DNA of 21,871 nucleotides from IMG/VR virus record IMGVR_UViG_3300046004_002908, positions 1 to 21,871 of that record; one strand, 5' to 3'. The DNA comes from a virus. The notes under the pieces are model-generated. The model saw only the letters and a program-made list of their open reading frames with translations, was not told the DNA's origin and searched no databases. Positions 8,659-21,249 of the stretch are shown here, one piece after another; position 1 is the stretch's first letter; each line of letters begins with the position of its first letter. Made by a program: the position numbers and the translations under genes.

Positions 8659-9276
8659 CTAAATATTTACAGAAATTTCTGGAGTTAATTTTAAAGAAAA
8701 AATTGGCAATCCTATATGGCTAGTAATACCTAAATCCAAAGCTTCTTTAGCATTTAAATACCAATCTAAATCTTTTCTTTTATTTAATTCTTTTTTAAGC
8801 CATTCTTTATTTTTAGGGCCTTTTAAATGAGAAGAGATTACTTTAAGTATTTCTTCCTCCTCTTTCATTAAAGCATTAAAAAATTCTTTTTGCTCACTAG
8901 CTCTTCCATCTGGGATAGAAGAAACCTGAATACCATGCAGCATTAAACCTGCATATTCTCCCATGAAACGAAAACCTTCATCCCCGAAACAGAAGACAAA
9001 AGCTCCAGCAGAGGAAGCTTCACCAGCCGTCATTGTAGCAATCTTTAAACCTTTTTTCCTAGCAGAATAAAGGATAGAAAGAATAGCTTTTAAAGATGAG
9101 ATATCTCCTCCGGGAGACTCAATATGGATAGGAAAAAGTATTTGCTCCAGTTCTATGGCTTCATTGATTCTATTACTTAAAGCTTTTACAGTTGTTGAAG
9201 AAAATTCTGTTAAGTAAAAACTTCTAGGCCCGTTTATTCCTTGAACAAAGTTTGGAGCATTTATATCCCATTTCAT
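8659..9276 (-). CDS. ClpP-like serine protease
   Basis: A 205-aa ClpP/crotonase-fold serine peptidase. The catalytic triad can be placed: Ser89 in GEASSAGA (ClpP GxAxSxG), His114 in LMLHG (ClpP M-I-H), and Asp171 in LDWYLNAKEAL, matching the ClpP R-D-x-F-x-S-A-x-E-A region. IESPGGDI (52-59) is the typical substrate-binding strand-loop. In phages such proteins serve as head maturation proteases or as ClpP analogues. Here no capsid or portal gene is close by and no Clp ATPase is seen, so the role is open. Its ATG overlaps the end of the glycosyltransferase by 4 bases, showing tight coupling. Confidence 0.88.
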   Translation of the reverse strand: MKWDINAPNFVQGINGPRSFYLTEFSSTTVKALSNRINEAIELEQILFPIHIESPGGDISSLKAILSILYSARKKGLKIATMTAGEASSAGAFVFCFGDEGFRFMGEYAGLMLHGIQVSSIPDGRASEQKEFFNALMKEEEEILKVISSHLKGPKNKEWLKKELNKRKDLDWYLNAKEALDLGITSHIGLPIFSLKLTPEISVNI

Positions 9277-10346
9277 ATTTTTGATAATAGTGTATCTACA
9301 GTATTTTGTACACTGAATACACTAGGAAGAGTTGATATAGTTTTTTCGCCAGAATTAAAAAATTCAACGGCTTCCAAAATTTTATCTTCTACTTCTTTAT
9401 CATCAAAATCAAACATGTTCCCTTGATTAACTATATTACCTAATTTGAAAAAGGCATCATCATAAATAGGAATTTTCTGAGAAGGTTTTACAATAATAGC
9501 ATTACCATTGTTAATAAAATCAGAATGAGCATGAGCATCCATTGCTACACAAACCTTGTTAAGAGAAAGCATATTAAACAAAGGAAGATTAAATCCTTCT
9601 GCGCCGGAAAGACCGGAAAGATCAATATCACAAGAATTCATTAGTTTGTTTACTTCTGAATTTTTATCTTGACGAGATATTAGATTAACATTCCAAGGAA
9701 TAGATCCCTCAAAGATTTGATTCAAAATTTGTTCCCATTTTTCTCTCTCTATAAAAGGGTTATCTATTAAGCAATTTAATCTATATCTTTTATCATTACC
9801 GAAAAGCTTCTTCCATATTCTGATTATCTTTTCTGTATGTTTTCTTTTTTCAAATTTTCCAATAAGCAAAAAGTTAATAGCATCAACTCTTGGAACAAGA
9901 GGATCAGCTTTTACATGAATAGAATCAAAATAAGGATGGCAGACTCCTACATTTTCTAGACCTTCAGATTTAGCAACCTCATAAGAATAATTACTAGAAA
10001 ACAATACCAAGTCATTATTTTTAATAATATTTTTTTCAACTTTAGTTAAAGTATCCGTTTCATGGAATGTCCATAAAATAGTTTTATCAGACAAACGTCT
10101 TTCAGATTCAATTAAATGCCAAAGTCTAATCGTAGGAAATTTACGAGAAAAATTGGCATGAGCTTTTTGACAACAGAATTGGAGCCAATCAAAAAATGGT
10201 TTATCAATATCGTAGGCTTTTAAATCTACTTGCCCGATAGGAAATATATTAGGAAGGAATTTTCTATCGAAAAACTCTTTCAATAATCCAAATGATACTT
10301 GACCAAAAGATAATCCATTAATTGGAACTTCTAAATTTATATTCAT
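9273..10346 (-). CDS. GT-B fold glycosyltransferase (GT4-like)
   Basis: A 357-aa glycosyltransferase expected to move a sugar from a nucleotide sugar to an unknown acceptor. The C-terminal half has the GT4 nucleotide-binding layout: LLIGKFEKRKH (160-170), a domain of strands and helices, then SGAEGFNLPLFNML (247-260), matching E-G-F-x-L-P. The second glutamate of the E-x7-E motif is replaced (Asn258 region), a departure from the classic family. The N-terminal half (PINGLSFGQVSFGLL) fits an acceptor-binding Rossmann domain. No membrane segment is seen. It overlaps both neighbours by 4 bases. Gmd elsewhere in the window could supply its donor, but that link is inference. Confidence 0.8.
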   Translation of the reverse strand: MNINLEVPINGLSFGQVSFGLLKEFFDRKFLPNIFPIGQVDLKAYDIDKPFFDWLQFCCQKAHANFSRKFPTIRLWHLIESERRLSDKTILWTFHETDTLTKVEKNIIKNNDLVLFSSNYSYEVAKSEGLENVGVCHPYFDSIHVKADPLVPRVDAINFLLIGKFEKRKHTEKIIRIWKKLFGNDKRYRLNCLIDNPFIEREKWEQILNQIFEGSIPWNVNLISRQDKNSEVNKLMNSCDIDLSGLSGAEGFNLPLFNMLSLNKVCVAMDAHAHSDFINNGNAIIVKPSQKIPIYDDAFFKLGNIVNQGNMFDFDDKEVEDKILEAVEFFNSGEKTISTLPSVFSVQNTVDTLLSKI

Positions 10347-10707: not shown

Positions 10708-11010
10708 TTAATTTTCCCTATGCTGGAAAGAAGTCAAAAAAAGATTATTTATGATAGTAGCAACTATAGGACAATAAATAAAATTATTAATATCAAAACA
10801 AAGACAATACCAAAAAGTTAAACAAAAAATACAACCCATCAAATATCTAACTTTTCTGCATAGATATCCTAGAATATTTTTACTCCCACCTTTTATATCT
10901 AAATATCTATACGCTATTGATCTTGGATAATCAAATATAGGAGCGAAGTTTAATAGAAAAAATATGAATACACAAGCTGTAGCCGTTTTTAAAATTTCGA
11001 TTATTTCCAT
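10708..11010 (-). CDS. Small membrane protein, DUF1360-like
   Basis: A 100-aa protein with two or three membrane segments: about 5-24 (ILKTATACVFIFFLLNF), 57-73 (YLMGCIFCLTFWYCLCF) and 76-93. The middle segment has C60-x2-C63-x2-F66-W67, the C-x2-C-x2-FW pattern of DUF1360-type phage and bacterial membrane proteins. FAPIFDYPR after the first segment also recurs in such phage proteins. The role is not known. It overlaps the upstream gene by 10 bases and the next gene follows after 2 bases, so it is part of the operon. Confidence 0.6.
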   Translation of the reverse strand: MEIIEILKTATACVFIFFLLNFAPIFDYPRSIAYRYLDIKGGSKNILGYLCRKVRYLMGCIFCLTFWYCLCFDINNFIYCPIVATIINNLFLTSFQHREN

Positions 11011-11351
11011 TTCTTTAAATCATTTAAGTCTTCTCTTCCTATTTCTTCAAAGTGAATAATTGCCATCAAGTTAAATATTACAGCTGCAAGATGGTCTTCG
11101 TCTCTATCTCCTTTCCAATATTGCATTAAATGTCTAAATGCACTGGCAAAGAATCTTGAGAATGGCATCCCTTTTTCCCAATTCCATTCACCATATTTAA
11201 CAGCTCCTCTTTCCATCAAAGAAGCTAATCTTGTCATCATAAAAGGAGAGATTAAATCGAATCTTGGTTTTCCTTCTTGAGTATCTCTTTTAGCTCCAGA
11301 TTCAAAACTTTGTCTAGCTCCACTATCTTTTGTTTTAAAATTCATACTCAT
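11001..11351 (-). CDS. dATP/dGTP diphosphohydrolase-like protein (DUF5664 type)
   Basis: A 116-aa protein with the family's characteristic opening, D-S-G-x-R-Q-x-F-x-[ST]-G-A-x-R-D-T-Q-E-G-K-x-R-[FY]-D-L (residues 9-32), then RGAVKYGEWNWEKG (48-61) and a helix with GDRDEDHLAAVIFNLMAIIHFEE (81-103), which holds the likely metal-binding acidic residues and His. The Pfam family is named for dATP/dGTP diphosphohydrolase activity of a phage relative; activity here is inferred. A second ATG at 11345 is possible. It is the first gene after the putative RNA region and a weak TTGACT box lies at 11374-11379. It would complement NrdA/B, ThyX and the MazG-like protein in dNTP control. Confidence 0.85.
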   Translation of the reverse strand: MSMNFKTKDSGARQSFESGAKRDTQEGKPRFDLISPFMMTRLASLMERGAVKYGEWNWEKGMPFSRFFASAFRHLMQYWKGDRDEDHLAAVIFNLMAIIHFEEIGREDLNDLKKWK

Positions 11352-11423
11352 AAATTAATCTCTATTTTTATAAAGTCAATCTTATAATATGTCTCTTATA
11401 TAAATATACTATATACATAAATA

Positions 11424-11839
11424 CATAAAGAAAGAAGAGTAAGAAGCTTTCCTTCTAGTCAGGGGACTTCTTACCTACCTGTTTTTGAAAAAAAACAGAA
11501 GTATTTGTATGCCTGAACAAGTTTAAATCGCTTGCTTAAAAAAGTTTCCTTTAGTCAGTTTGGACTCGCCTTTCAGCGACCCATGAGGTTTTTATTGACG
11601 TATCAAAATTGGATAGAAGCCCTTTACCCAACCGACTTGCTCATCTGCCCACTAGATTTATTAGATCGTAGCTGTAGAAACTACTGAACAAGTACTCAAA
11701 TTCTCAACTTCGGTGCACCCTTTCGGATGTTGGTGTTGACAAGTCCCGAGTCAGAGCACCATGCGATTTTCTTGAATGACATCCGGCTTTGGGAGTCCCG
11801 GACCCATTGCGGCAAATGAGGCCGCTATGTAAAATTAAC
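11424..11839 (-). ncRNA. Candidate structured non-coding RNA, about 410 nt, class unknown
   Basis: No open frame fills 11352-11880, and the central part is visibly richer in G and C than its neighbours. A promoter (11846-11874) precedes it and a terminator-like hairpin (11439-11474) ends it, both on the minus strand. Stems seen: 11809-11813/11821-11825 (5 bp); 11782-11786/11798-11802 (5 bp); 11756-11760/11712-11716 (GGTGC/GCACC); 11725-11729/11716-11720 with a GAAA loop; 11625-11631/11609-11615 (7 bp); 11575-11579/11566-11570 with a GAAA loop. Three of these contain a pair that is G-U as minus-strand RNA but A-C on the plus strand, which fixes the strand. Two short motifs are repeated inside (11513-11522 and 11684-11693; 11448-11462 and 11545-11558). 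It does not match tRNA, tmRNA or RNase P signatures I know. Confidence 0.65.
11439..11474 (-). terminator. Terminator-like hairpin closing the RNA region
   Basis: A perfect 8-bp stem, gtaagaag (11439-11446) with cttcttac (11467-11474), encloses 20 bases. On the minus strand it is followed by the U-rich run TCTTCTTTCTTTATG. A second hairpin with an 8-bp stem lies just before it (11479-11486/11491-11498). The long loop makes it less classical than the 2421-2454 terminator. Confidence 0.55.
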
Positions 11840-11845
11840 TTTCTT

Positions 11846-11874
11846 TATATAATGCCAAAATTTTCTTTTGTCAA
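11846..11874 (-). promoter_or_regulatory. Sigma70-like promoter before the RNA region
   Basis: Minus-strand TTGACA (11874-11869), a 17-base spacer and TATATA (11851-11846). The -35 box is a perfect consensus. It sits right after the stop of the 424-aa gene (11881). The expected transcript start, near 11839, is about 490 bases before the next ATG, so it fits an RNA gene better than a short mRNA leader. Confidence 0.65.
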
Positions 11875-11880
11875 GTACTT

Positions 11881-13155
11881 TTATGCAAAACCTTGCAAAT
11901 CTACAATTTTATTTATACCCGCTAAATCATCTGTGCTAATCCCAAGAATACTGTAAGCTTCTTCTTCTGTCATTTCTTTTTTTAGAGTTATATCAGGAGG
12001 ACTTCCATCAATTGTTGGTAGAGCTGTTTCCACTAAAATACTATTATAAAGTGAAATATTCTCATATACATTTTTCATTATTAATTTATCTCCTAGTGTT
12101 TCCTTATATATTAAAATTACTTGATAAACGGATAAATTTTCTTTTCTGAAATAAACTATCTCTGTAGCATTTTTAAAAAGACCATCGTAAATATAAGATT
12201 GATTTAAATAATTGATTCTTTTTTCTATTTCTTCTCTAGCTGACTCTGCTATATAATCTATTGATTTATTTATAAATAAAGGGCTAGAAAAATAACTTGA
12301 ATTTTCAACTAATAAACGATTAGGCCCAGCTCTTCTACTAAAAGAGTAAGGAATTGTAACCTTTTCATCTTCTGTTTTTTCGCTCCACTCGGTCAAAGGA
12401 TCGTCTTCAAATCCCTTTATAGTTTCTACTTCATAATAACCTGCTAGTCCATTAAAAAGACCAGCTTGATAATCTCCTGCATCTATAGGAAAGCCTATTG
12501 TTTTAGCTACACTTTTAAAATATATTTTTATATTTCTAGCTGATAAATCTCCTAACCTTAAATACCTATGAGGACTTAAAACATTTGATCTCAAGAACGG
12601 TGTAATTTTTACTTCATTACCTTTAATTATTATACTTGCTATTTTTATATATATTTTACCTGCGTATTCAGAATCTTTTAAAATTTGAGTTCCTCCTAAT
12701 TTTATAAAATTATCTTTTTGTTGAGTGTAAAGTATATTATTATCATAATACTCTACGAAATTTTCATCTGTAGATGTTATTATTGAAAATTGATTTATAA
12801 AATCCGAATGATTATTTTTGTCATCTAGCCACCAATTTATTTTACCGCCTAAAATTCCATCGCTAAAACCTGCTGGAACTTTAGGTATAGTTAAATAAAC
12901 ATCACAGCTTTCAGCTGTTTCAAATGTTTTTAAAAAAGATGTTCCTAATTCATAAGTAGTTTCTTCAAGGGAATTGAAGGGATAATAATTTTTTTTGTCT
13001 AAAGGATTATTTTTTATTTCGAAATTTAAATAGTTAGCTTTATAAGTATTTAATATAAATGAATTTATATCTCCAGCATTTACTATAAAATTATATTTAT
13101 TACCTTTTTTAGTACTCAAGATAACTTGAAATGGTAAATATGTTTGATTACTCAT
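11881..13155 (-). CDS. Virion-associated protein of unknown function (424 aa)
   Basis: I do not recognise this 424-aa protein. It is mostly beta-rich with many aromatic and Asn residues, like its upstream neighbours, and has no signal peptide or membrane segment. A helix with EIEKRINYLNQS lies at about 310-320 and the C-terminal 40 residues look like a separate small acidic domain (TEEEAYSILGIS). It overlaps the upstream gene by 4 bases (ATGA) and is the last gene of the structural run, before the promoter at 11846-11874. A baseplate, tail or adhesion role is inferred from position only. Confidence 0.65.
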   Translation of the reverse strand: MSNQTYLPFQVILSTKKGNKYNFIVNAGDINSFILNTYKANYLNFEIKNNPLDKKNYYPFNSLEETTYELGTSFLKTFETAESCDVYLTIPKVPAGFSDGILGGKINWWLDDKNNHSDFINQFSIITSTDENFVEYYDNNILYTQQKDNFIKLGGTQILKDSEYAGKIYIKIASIIIKGNEVKITPFLRSNVLSPHRYLRLGDLSARNIKIYFKSVAKTIGFPIDAGDYQAGLFNGLAGYYEVETIKGFEDDPLTEWSEKTEDEKVTIPYSFSRRAGPNRLLVENSSYFSSPLFINKSIDYIAESAREEIEKRINYLNQSYIYDGLFKNATEIVYFRKENLSVYQVILIYKETLGDKLIMKNVYENISLYNSILVETALPTIDGSPPDITLKKEMTEEEAYSILGISTDDLAGINKIVDLQGFA

Positions 13156-17900: not shown

Positions 17901-18788
17901 TATAGTTAAGTCTCCTGTTTTCCCTTCTGTGTATTGAAAATCTAAATCTATTTTAGAACCTTCTACTTGCAATAAATATTCTAATTCAAAAATAGCTTTT
18001 GATATGCCTGTTTGAATAATATCCCCAGAGTACGCGGAAATATTTGACCATGTAATACGCTCAAAAACTATATCATCTGTATCATCTTCTTGAGCATCTT
18101 CATTAACAGTTTGAGCATTCTGTATTTGTAATGAATACGACTGGTTCCCAAAATTTGTTTCTAAATCTAAGTAGACAGGGAATCCTTGAGAATATCCGCT
18201 TGTATCATAGTTGAAAAAATTTATATAATTTCCGGGTTGTATTTCTTTTACATGTGTGAATTTCCCTGTAATGCTACTCGAATTTATAGAAAAAATATCA
18301 ACAATATACTGTCCTTTATTAGTTATTTTTCCGCTTACTGCTTCATTTGAATAAAAATTTGAAAATTCTAATTTAGGGATAGAGCTTCCATATATAAAAG
18401 CGTCTAAATCTACAGAATTCGAAACTGGAGAATCTAAAATTTTAACCACTAATGCGCTAAATATAGAAGTTGGAGTGGCGAGTACCCCCTCTCTAGTGAT
18501 AGGAACAGAGTTTAAATAATCTTTATAAGTAGTATATCCTTGAACATAAGATCCTTCGGAAAATGGTTCTTTAATATAAGAATTTATACTAATAGGTTCT
18601 TTGTTAAAAGTTCCTATAATATTATCATTTGGATCTTTTATTATACCAGATTTAAATAAATAACGAACATAATGTGTTCCTGTAATTCCTACTTCAAAAT
18701 GATCACTAGAATAATTATAAACTTTAAAGTCAAAGTTTAAAGATTTTTGAGGGTAAAAATTCCTATATTGTATTCCTGTAATTTTCAT
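14943..18788 (-). CDS. Large tail or baseplate protein with a jelly-roll-like domain
   Basis: A 1281-aa beta-rich protein, very rich in Asn, Ser, Thr and aromatic residues, as is usual for phage fibre and baseplate proteins. Residues about 640-850 resemble the carbohydrate-binding jelly-roll common in tail proteins: DYTFSFYI (722-729), then IWKVNIFGVQLEEENLSTFL (824-843), matching the widespread W/F-G-x-Q-L-E-x-G-x-x-x-T-x-x-x-x-T signature. The N-terminal ~600 residues are unassigned beta structure, and the C-terminal 400 are also unassigned. There is no signal peptide or membrane segment. It starts one base after the hub gene and overlaps the next by one. A role in contacting the host surface is inferred. 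Confidence 0.7.
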   Translation of the reverse strand: MKITGIQYRNFYPQKSLNFDFKVYNYSSDHFEVGITGTHYVRYLFKSGIIKDPNDNIIGTFNKEPISINSYIKEPFSEGSYVQGYTTYKDYLNSVPITREGVLATPTSIFSALVVKILDSPVSNSVDLDAFIYGSSIPKLEFSNFYSNEAVSGKITNKGQYIVDIFSINSSSITGKFTHVKEIQPGNYINFFNYDTSGYSQGFPVYLDLETNFGNQSYSLQIQNAQTVNEDAQEDDTDDIVFERITWSNISAYSGDIIQTGISKAIFELEYLLQVEGSKIDLDFQYTEGKTGDLTITGSSTDFFGSENINVSYSGTLFTQNGISNGLLYNTDFEKTKDDYTIKGNIQDVKFYSLEGQLSREFTNLKATGEVVYIVQPNDGLPINTKINDLNLNPDYFIDLGGKTGLPNTFENYELNYERLNTYKAIAIPNNFTPFPITGIVDKEEMEGKFVFEKHKFIFPSSVLLHTKNLPTSITNTQIGNIYPYRGVSYATLNDQYILFSSEAKGETRPFIFLTSDSDTLFFKNLSNIDYNGQYRLSSQDLVKTRVLNSNTYYFKNNGGFSDSLEYKGKEFINSIIKDGIITYQNLTPFDNVEDVYNDFYKREDNQDIKKLDYGINWNENNLLVLKKEDNTSCFYSDSDSINFGITFDDKEFLSDRSTSKSANLIKSTQSENFTVDSLSTNVKIDDIANPNFVSYGTLANTATNEYKINFNFTKKDSTKEDYTFSFYILPQDPLPAETGVPFIQIFCGESFYCNINSLGAVLTDKSVQAGSYDTDKEGAFYPQNIKRVFVKFKILNEENINIKLVNASDSSISQDGFNPQSNIWKVNIFGVQLEEENLSTFLTPTPYQLYSEGTLLEGVFSGLFQYFIYKLYGIPGQFSTITSQGNNNYRVFTTTNPLIRDEKRNSCGDIKCFSTFFEENNKATLWDKNIIGGSNSKYKGISESNSNIVSFFTKEILPYLFNIKNNNFPKLYTDFDKLYFEATKYASNGTVLETKNTFYLKNNNTYSYAVNEIIDLFIKHKNYDYSYVSLEGVIYKIPKSYGTNKLTPIPNNELDNIVFSGFLNKSLDLNIQAGFCRYYLTENVGSQNFGYFYETPNFYDVKNTNLINTQNTFVDLFPEEKSKINERPFKESMSLINISFSRLVKSNIPKELEKTINSTVYVQSCYFKKQFANSILDLTGTFYNIKKRMNQVWSVKIKNSIDDEIPVYEFRGPTPLDFDKYEIKGFATQISLDSQKRYLEITHDDIEEITFNENDQALITLTAYSFNNDPSPVVSSFSIP

Positions 18789-18789
18789 T

Positions 18790-21249
18790 TTAAATAATAT
18801 TTATATAGGATTTGCCGGGGTTGCTTCTTAATGCATTATTTAATTGATGCGTTTTTACACTATCAGAAGGATTTACAGGAAAAGAGTTTGAAAAAGTAAG
18901 ATTAGTTCTAGTCCCACTCTGATCTAATCTTATGGAAAAAGATACTAGTCCATCTTCTGGACCTAATAAAGAATTAGGTAATCCAAAAATAGAATAAGTT
19001 TTAGTTTCTTTCTCCTCTTGCAAATTTGTATTTAAATTAAATAATATTTTATCTGCATAAGTTTTAATTTTTGCTTCATCTATATAACATCTATTATCAT
19101 TTCTTTCTAAGTTAGAAATATCTCCATTTGTTATATCTTTAGTATTTGCTCTAATAGAAACATATTTATCATTTTGTTTTCCTTGTGTAGCAAAAACTAA
19201 TTCAAGTTTAGGTATAATAGCTTTTATTTTTCCAAAATTAAAAGAATTGACAGTTTCTATAACTTTTATTACATAATTAGAATCTATAGGTGATAAGATT
19301 GGTAATCTTGTATATGTACCCTTAGTTTTCTTTATATAAAATTTAAATAATTTACATTTATTGGATTTCGCTCCTAAGCCTTCAGTATTTTCATTTTCGT
19401 CTGGAGATATTCCATTTGAAATCTCACATTCTATATCAGGCTGCTTATTCTCTCCAAAAGACCAAACTAAATATAACTTTTCTTTATCAGTCAGAGCTGC
19501 CCCACCTTCTGAAGTTCTGTCTAAAAAAACATAAGGTTTTAAGCCATCTATAAATTTTTCTACATTTTCAGAATTTGGGTCAGGTTGCCATATAGGAGTT
19601 CTATTAAGGACAACAATATTTTTTTCGGCAAACTTTGATATCTCAGCTGCTCTTATATATGGATGAGAAATATTTATATCTGGAAATACAAATTTATTAC
19701 CGGGTTTAATCCTTGAGAATCCTTTAACAGTTCCATCTGGACTTTCAAAACTTTTATCTTCTAAATCACTTGCAGCAGCAGACCAATATTTTCCACAAAA
19801 TGTTTTAGCTATCTGAAGTTCAAAATCATAAGCTTTAGTTCCTGTTTCTTCTACAATTAATAAGTAAGCCCCTCCTTCTTTTAGTTCTTTTATTTTTTCT
19901 TCTGTAAAAGCTCCTCCTAAACTAGGATTAGAAGATCCTATTATATTATGGTAAAGAGCTTGGCATTGAGCTTCCCCTTTTTTGCCTGCTTGTTTATCTG
20001 TCGTATTCTCATGGCATATAGCTTTTATATTCCATCCTAAAAGAGCATTATTCCCTGTCCCTAATTTTACTTTATCCGGACTTGTATATTCGAGTACTTT
20101 AACATAACAAAATAAATCTCTTAATTCTTTACTATAGTAACTTGCAATAACTGATGCTTGGAAATTGAATTCTGATCCATATCTTCTTTCTAATGGTCTA
20201 TTTCCGTTGGATAATTTATCGAGAGATATTGGGAAAAGCGTTCTATTACTATTTCTACTAGATCCAGATCCTCCCCCTGTATTTGAACTACAATCATATT
20301 CTTTTATTTCTCCATCTTTTCCAAAATATGCTATATTTATATCTTTGGAAAGTCCTTCTATGCTTTTACTTGTAGAAACTTCTTCTATTTTGCAGTTATT
20401 CGAATCTTTTATAGTCGAATCATTTATATTTATACCTCTACTTAAATCAAAGAAAATCACTGTATCGTTTTTCCAATAAAATGAAAATCCAAAATCTTGA
20501 CACCAATTGTTCAAAACTTCTCTAAGAGTTCCTGTGTATTGAGCTCTGTAATCGACTGGAGAAGAAAAAGTATTATTGAAATTCACTCCATATCTAGAAG
20601 CTTCTTGTATGAGATCGCTAAATTTATAATCTACATCCAACTTGCTGAATCCTCTTGATTTCTGACAATCTAAAGAGTTATTAGGGGTTGTGTTTGATGT
20701 ACAAGGATCACATTTATCTTTCTCAGAGTCATTTTCTAAATTGCCACATGGATCAATATAATCTCCAACAAAAATCATATTTGAAAAATCTCCAACAGCT
20801 CTATAAATAGATAGATTGCTAACTTTATTTGAAACTAAACTAGGAGTAACTGATGAAGTTTTTAAATAATTATTTAAATTTATATTACCGGGTAATGCTA
20901 CTTGTGTTGTATTTTGTTTTAATATATTCGGCAAAGGGCCTCCATCTTTGCCTTTTAATCCTACATATATTTTGTCTAAAATTACACTAGTATCGACAAG
21001 GGTAAGTTCACAAGTTTTTCCAGATGTTACGCTTTCCTTTGTAGAAAAAGAAATAGCATGTCCCTTAAAAGTATAAAAATTCCCAATCCTAACTACTATT
21101 TCGGATTTTGTGTTAAGATTGTAGTCTTCTTTTCCCCATATAAAAGATAATCTTAATGTAGACGGCTCAGATCCTCCACCGCTTAAATCTGCTGAGTAAA
21201 CTTTTTTCGTAATACCTGATATTTTTATTGAAGGAAAATCCGCTTTCAT
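18790..21249 (-). CDS. Probable baseplate/tail hub protein
   Basis: An 819-aa protein with a hub-like layout. The N-terminal ~95 residues form a beta-barrel-like run (TLRLSFIWG, SEIVVRIGNFYTFKGHAISF, TCELTLVD). A segment at 207-268, YKFSDLIQEASRYGVNF then GTLREVLNNWCQDFGFSFYWKNDTVIFFD, resembles the gp27/GpD-type domain with a small helix-strand unit. Four cysteines, 168, 180, 183 and 195, are spaced C-x11-C-x2-C-x11-C. A Gly/Ser linker lies at 325-332. The C-terminus has GLVSFSIRLDQSGTRTNLTFSNSFP, a strand-turn-strand I have seen at the ends of other phage tail proteins. Gp27/GpD is a structural analogy, not a confirmed family match. Confidence 0.6.
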   Translation of the reverse strand: MKADFPSIKISGITKKVYSADLSGGGSEPSTLRLSFIWGKEDYNLNTKSEIVVRIGNFYTFKGHAISFSTKESVTSGKTCELTLVDTSVILDKIYVGLKGKDGGPLPNILKQNTTQVALPGNINLNNYLKTSSVTPSLVSNKVSNLSIYRAVGDFSNMIFVGDYIDPCGNLENDSEKDKCDPCTSNTTPNNSLDCQKSRGFSKLDVDYKFSDLIQEASRYGVNFNNTFSSPVDYRAQYTGTLREVLNNWCQDFGFSFYWKNDTVIFFDLSRGININDSTIKDSNNCKIEEVSTSKSIEGLSKDINIAYFGKDGEIKEYDCSSNTGGGSGSSRNSNRTLFPISLDKLSNGNRPLERRYGSEFNFQASVIASYYSKELRDLFCYVKVLEYTSPDKVKLGTGNNALLGWNIKAICHENTTDKQAGKKGEAQCQALYHNIIGSSNPSLGGAFTEEKIKELKEGGAYLLIVEETGTKAYDFELQIAKTFCGKYWSAAASDLEDKSFESPDGTVKGFSRIKPGNKFVFPDINISHPYIRAAEISKFAEKNIVVLNRTPIWQPDPNSENVEKFIDGLKPYVFLDRTSEGGAALTDKEKLYLVWSFGENKQPDIECEISNGISPDENENTEGLGAKSNKCKLFKFYIKKTKGTYTRLPILSPIDSNYVIKVIETVNSFNFGKIKAIIPKLELVFATQGKQNDKYVSIRANTKDITNGDISNLERNDNRCYIDEAKIKTYADKILFNLNTNLQEEKETKTYSIFGLPNSLLGPEDGLVSFSIRLDQSGTRTNLTFSNSFPVNPSDSVKTHQLNNALRSNPGKSYINII

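Follow-up and report, generated by a model that had tools for sequence, protein, structure and literature searches.

A candidate structured non-coding RNA of about 400 nt in the intergenic gap of a phage genome

The gap and the genes around it

The window, ie the whole stretch of DNA that was analysed, is a virus record 21,871 bases long. All its genes are encoded by the minus strand and abut or overlap one another except at 11352-11880, where a non-coding stretch of 529 bases is without any frame of at least 60 aa; the longest frames inside it measure 51 and 39 aa. Two more gaps of some size, at 2195-2469 and 2719-2887, contain ORFs of 63 aa and 61 aa, respectively, so the 529-bp gap is unique in the window. 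The first-pass annotation had pointed to a frameless interval amid touching genes, and this is indeed the sole real non-coding gap in the record. Phage codon bias was absent from every frame of the gap (-0.17 to 0.01 bits per codon, versus 0.08-0.41 for the genes compared), and the frame fragments gave no significant match in Pfam or PHROG. Neither the recoding of stop codons nor the decay of a former gene finds support in the frames, the codon bias or the Pfam and PHROG comparisons.

Within the gap, the body of the candidate RNA (11424..11840, minus strand, about 417 nt) carries no coding signal and coincides with a GC maximum. Its GC content, 0.46 over 300 bp and 0.42 over 417 bp, is the highest in the window at both lengths, against a window mean of 0.30, and the flank of the gap drops to 18%. 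The GC-richer body described at first reading is therefore real, at 42% GC within a 30% GC record.

The gene downstream (11001..11351, minus strand) matches the N-terminal domain of a dATP/dGTP diphosphohydrolase. It is followed by small proteins of no family, a glycosyltransferase, a ClpP-like head protease, NrdB and NrdA, and the downstream genes also include an epimerase, a nucleotide pyrophosphohydrolase, a thymidylate synthase and a UvsX-like recombinase. Upstream lies a gene of no family (11881..13155, minus strand), which is probably the last of a tail module. None of the upstream proteins has a significant family match; a tail module is likely because a distant relative of the protein at 18790-21249 adjoins a baseplate-wedge-like gene in locus L212. 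UvsX, a DnaB-like helicase, a primase and a DNA polymerase are present in the phage group, and its promoters, as found in intergenic regions of the relatives, are of the sigma70 type (TTGACA/TATAAT). No Shine-Dalgarno signal was found before the genes of the window or of its relatives L201, L202 and L203.

Several observations concern the wider group. A close relative, L201, carries an RNA ligase gene (phrog_968, at 18637-19926), which suggests RNA repair by these phages, and the distant relative L203 has a sigma-factor-like gene (8913-9515) just upstream of its glycosyltransferase-containing block. Contigs of related phages in which the epimerase accompanies UvsX-like or ribonucleotide reductase genes (L187, L189, L191 and L193) were binned in metagenome-assembled genomes assigned to Flavobacteriaceae, Lokiarchaeota and an uncultured bacterium; the binning probably reflects noise or host links.

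Promoter, hairpins and folding

The best promoter match within the gap is TTGACA-17-TATATA on the minus strand, with the -35 hexamer at 11869..11874 and the -10 hexamer at 11846..11851, which bears out the consensus pair noted previously. An alternative -10, TATAAA at 11849-11844, would give a spacer of 19. The promoter starts 7 bases past the stop codon of the upstream gene, and transcription of the candidate RNA would be expected to start near 11840. Promoter-like matches are not enriched across the window (89, versus 93 in shuffles), so the match is weak by itself. In the distant relatives L206, L209 and L203, TTGACA-16-TATAAT and similar pairs lie between divergent genes, in regions that are truly intergenic, and the promoter type therefore belongs to the phage group.

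The strongest sign that the RNA folds is an excess of hairpins closed by GAAA and other GNRA loops. Three GAAA-closed hairpins of at least 4 pairs occur on the minus strand of the gap where 0.076 are expected, and none of 1000 shuffles reached three; for GNRA hairpins in general the comparison with shuffles gave P = 0.004, in a test that is partly post hoc because the GAAA loops had already been named in the first-pass annotation. Its GAAA-capped stems are thus present beyond the level of shuffled sequence. The hairpins are CAUCC-GAAA-GGGUG (11716..11729), UCGCU-GAAA-GGCGA (11566..11579, pair probability 0.95) and AAAG-GAAA-CUUU (11541..11552), the third being weaker than the other two. Across the whole 21.9 kb, both strands included, just two GNRA hairpins combine 5 or more pairs with at least 3 G-C pairs, and both lie in the gap on the minus strand. 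The promoter and the GAAA hairpin excess agree on that strand. Other predicted elements, also on the minus strand, are a 5' hairpin, CAU-GCGGC/GCCGC-AUG (11805..11829; mean pair probability 0.89 for GCGGC/GCCGC), and a long-range helix in which AUGUC, CAAG and AAAUCGC (11763..11782) would pair with GCGAUUU, CUUG and GGCAU (11509..11531) at a pair probability of 0.67-0.84.

The overall folding energy does not add to this evidence. The minimum free energy of the minus strand is -107.1 kcal/mol, no better than that of dinucleotide shuffles (z = -0.78; plus strand, z = -1.26), and in local windows of 120 bases on the minus strand z ranges from -1.7 to +1.0. Global folding energy, ensemble entropy and long-range pairing were all at the level of shuffles, and overall folding, offered earlier as evidence for a structured RNA, does not support one. 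The same reading had drawn the strand from three stems holding a pair that is G-U on the minus strand and A-C on the plus strand. Those stems exist as described, but the strand argument carries no weight, since the energy difference between minus and plus strands (-4.9) is matched by shuffles (mean -5.1 ± 5.7) and is explained by composition.

At the 3' end a hairpin, GGUAAGAAGU..GCUUCUUACU (11438..11475, minus strand, -14.3 kcal/mol), precedes the U-rich tail UCUUCUUUCUUU (11437-11426), in which the U tract is interrupted. The closing hairpin with its U-rich tail was thus correctly recognised at the outset. It is absent from the output of the terminator scan, and the helices 11475-11438 and 11456-11429 are alternative pairings which compete for its 3' arm and tail, as 11456-11449 can pair with the tail instead. 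Termination there is plausible, and the hairpin would be a weak terminator or an attenuator. Elsewhere in the window, at 2425-2462, there is a canonical strong terminator, CCCGCGCC..GGCGCGGG followed by a T-rich tail, which at -21.8 kcal/mol is far stronger than the terminal hairpin.

The body also contains an internal duplication, and its best self-alignment scored above all 150 shuffles. The first copy, GUCC..CUGACUA.AAGGAAA, occupies 11537..11565 and the second 11440..11467, inside the terminal hairpin (both minus strand); the duplicated core GUCC-CUGACUA-AAGGAAA lies at 11565-11545 and 11467-11448. Both copies, more fully CUGACUA(G)AAGGAAA(G)CUU.UU, read on the minus strand and are spaced 97 bases apart.

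Search for homologues

Against the gap, Rfam 15 gave nothing at gathering level and only implausible matches at E values up to 10, so that the earlier failure to match a known RNA holds for the Rfam families, RNase P and group I introns included. A blastn search of 50,697 phage and 72,556 plasmid records returned no real match. Two short matches are attributed to chance: that in Oenococcus phage OE33PA6 falls in an open frame of 469 aa or more, and that in an Enterococcus plasmid involves the AT-rich flank. The RNA had no convincing BLAST match in additional phage records or in seven metagenome-assembled genomes. A covariance model built on 11560-11693 matched only the window itself in 461 kb of loci or 50 phage records, and all four matches to the pattern of the duplicated element in IMG/VR lie in coding sequence and are taken as chance.

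One 21-nt match, in a 223-kb phage (L142), came with partner strands that seemed to match and was rejected after a structured pattern scan because the sequence in common, TTGGTGTTGACAAGT, is the -35 region of promoter-like repeats on the opposite strand. Such repeats, with a TTGACA core, occur in L147 near 10546 (in the context TTGGTGTTGACAAGT) and near 19897, and in L150 near 10849 of its reverse complement. They precede HNH-like ORFs, and are oriented opposite to them, in a 223-kb freshwater phage and a relative.

The window proteins P0001, P0002 and P0003 have no relatives in IMG/VR. Protein scans of IMG/VR with NrdB and the glycosyltransferase block located two close relatives, L002/L175 and L174 (records IMGVR_UViG_3300002835_015167 and IMGVR_UViG_3300042446_003067). 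L002/L175 shares 91.7% DNA identity with the window across 8.5 kb, and the proteins of the two relatives near the contig break are 89-98% identical to those of the window (L174, 89-97%). Both contigs stop about 1.4-1.6 kb short of the gap, near window positions 9868 and 10020. L002 and L174 break within the same glycosyltransferase gene (window 9868-10020), which may mark a strain-variable stretch. In the parts of distant relatives that were examined (glycosyltransferase identity 35-39%) there was no comparable gap or match; the long gaps in L203 and L204 are only apparent, being open reading frames which run off the fragment rather than RNA. As no homologue was found, there is no basis for claiming a class defined by covarying pairs.

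Interpretation of the gap

An orphan structured RNA of about 400 nt is the most likely content of the gap. The non-coding RNA inference is moderately supported: the promoter, the composition and the tetraloops speak for it, but the folding energy does not. A non-coding transcript outside known families is the best reading of the gap, the promoter, the GC island, the GNRA hairpins and the negative Rfam result taken together, and is partly supported by them. We give a little less than an even chance to the gap being a phage gene for a stand-alone non-coding RNA. The fuller proposal, in which this RNA of about 400 nt stands alone, has a tertiary fold stabilised by its GAAA loops and lies outside all described classes, is doubtful, and to claim a new RNA class would be premature.

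If the gap is such a gene, transcription would begin near 11840 and mostly end near 11426. The long-range helix 11782-11763 / 11531-11509 would close a multi-branched RNA, and the GAAA loops may dock into helices and hold the fold together. Most plausibly the molecule would work as RNA, serving as a scaffold or trapping a protein or RNA of the host or the phage in the course of infection; any binding partner we might name would be a guess.

The strongest rival, in our estimation unlikely, is that the gap is transcribed from the promoter at 11874 as a 5' leader of about 490 nt for the downstream nucleotide-metabolism operon (dNTP hydrolase-like gene, glycosyltransferase, ClpP-like protease, NrdB, NrdA and more), with the terminal hairpin as an attenuator that is opened by the folded leader or by a ligand. 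Operon and promoter are on the same strand, the first gene begins 87 bases past the hairpin with no good second promoter between them (best 9/12), and the hairpin is of moderate strength, two alternative pairings competing for its 3' arm and tail. The riboswitch and leader families of Rfam, however, do not match, and nothing similar precedes the corresponding genes of the distant relatives, whose gene order differs.

It is rather improbable that the gap is foreign or decayed sequence of no function. The GC content unlike that of the genome, the missing homologue and the folding at chance level would all fit this explanation, whereas no frame holds a protein remnant and the GAAA hairpins and the promoter share one strand. 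Phage genomes shed functionless sequence quickly, and sequence of this kind would be expected to be lost rapidly. It is quite improbable that the gap works at the level of DNA, for instance as a T4-like origin at which a transcript primes replication, made up of the promoter, the GC-rich body and the AT-rich tract 11352-11423: the flank at 18% GC and the replication genes of the group (UvsX, DnaB-like helicase, primase and DNA polymerase) are compatible with it, but the gap has no iterons or tandem direct repeats, the genes do not switch strand there, and an origin does not need GAAA hairpins on one strand.

The preferred reading, an orphan RNA, is represented for now by a single sequence, which is of use as a well-defined target for finding relatives, for RNA-seq and for chemical probing rather than as an established class. 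It resembles attenuator and riboswitch leaders in having a promoter, a structured leader and a terminal hairpin before a co-directional operon, and differs from them in that no known leader family in Rfam matches. Group I introns, RNase P RNA and tmRNA fall in a comparable size range and have GNRA tetraloops. None of the three was matched in Rfam at E values up to 10, the group I intron model with its conserved P3-P7 core included; in addition, the genes on either side of the gap are intact and uninterrupted, and ARAGORN found no tmRNA.

GOLLD, which as its name says is also known from lake samples, is like the candidate a non-coding RNA of phage or prophage. Many GOLLD RNAs are longer than 800 nt and are found close to tRNA islands (PMC12286853), as against a body of about 417 nt and a 21.9-kb window in which no tRNA was found. 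A conserved 3' region is a further mark of GOLLD. ROOL is likewise a phage non-coding RNA, and its complex multi-branch fold is similar to that predicted here (PMC12286853); ROOL env-120 has a length of 659 nt (PMC12286853), compared with about 410 nt for the candidate. Membership in either family, which the first-pass annotation had raised, is not supported, because neither Rfam model matches, and the length differs. ROOL genes belong to phages or prophages, in many cases close to a tRNA island; the window is a virus record with no tRNA in its 21.9 kb. ROOL is also marked by a homo-oligomeric cage with a conserved kissing loop. ROOL and GOLLD are large phage non-coding RNAs whose roles are still unknown, and an orphan RNA with its own promoter would, if confirmed, provide a separate test case in a freshwater phage group without Shine-Dalgarno sites.
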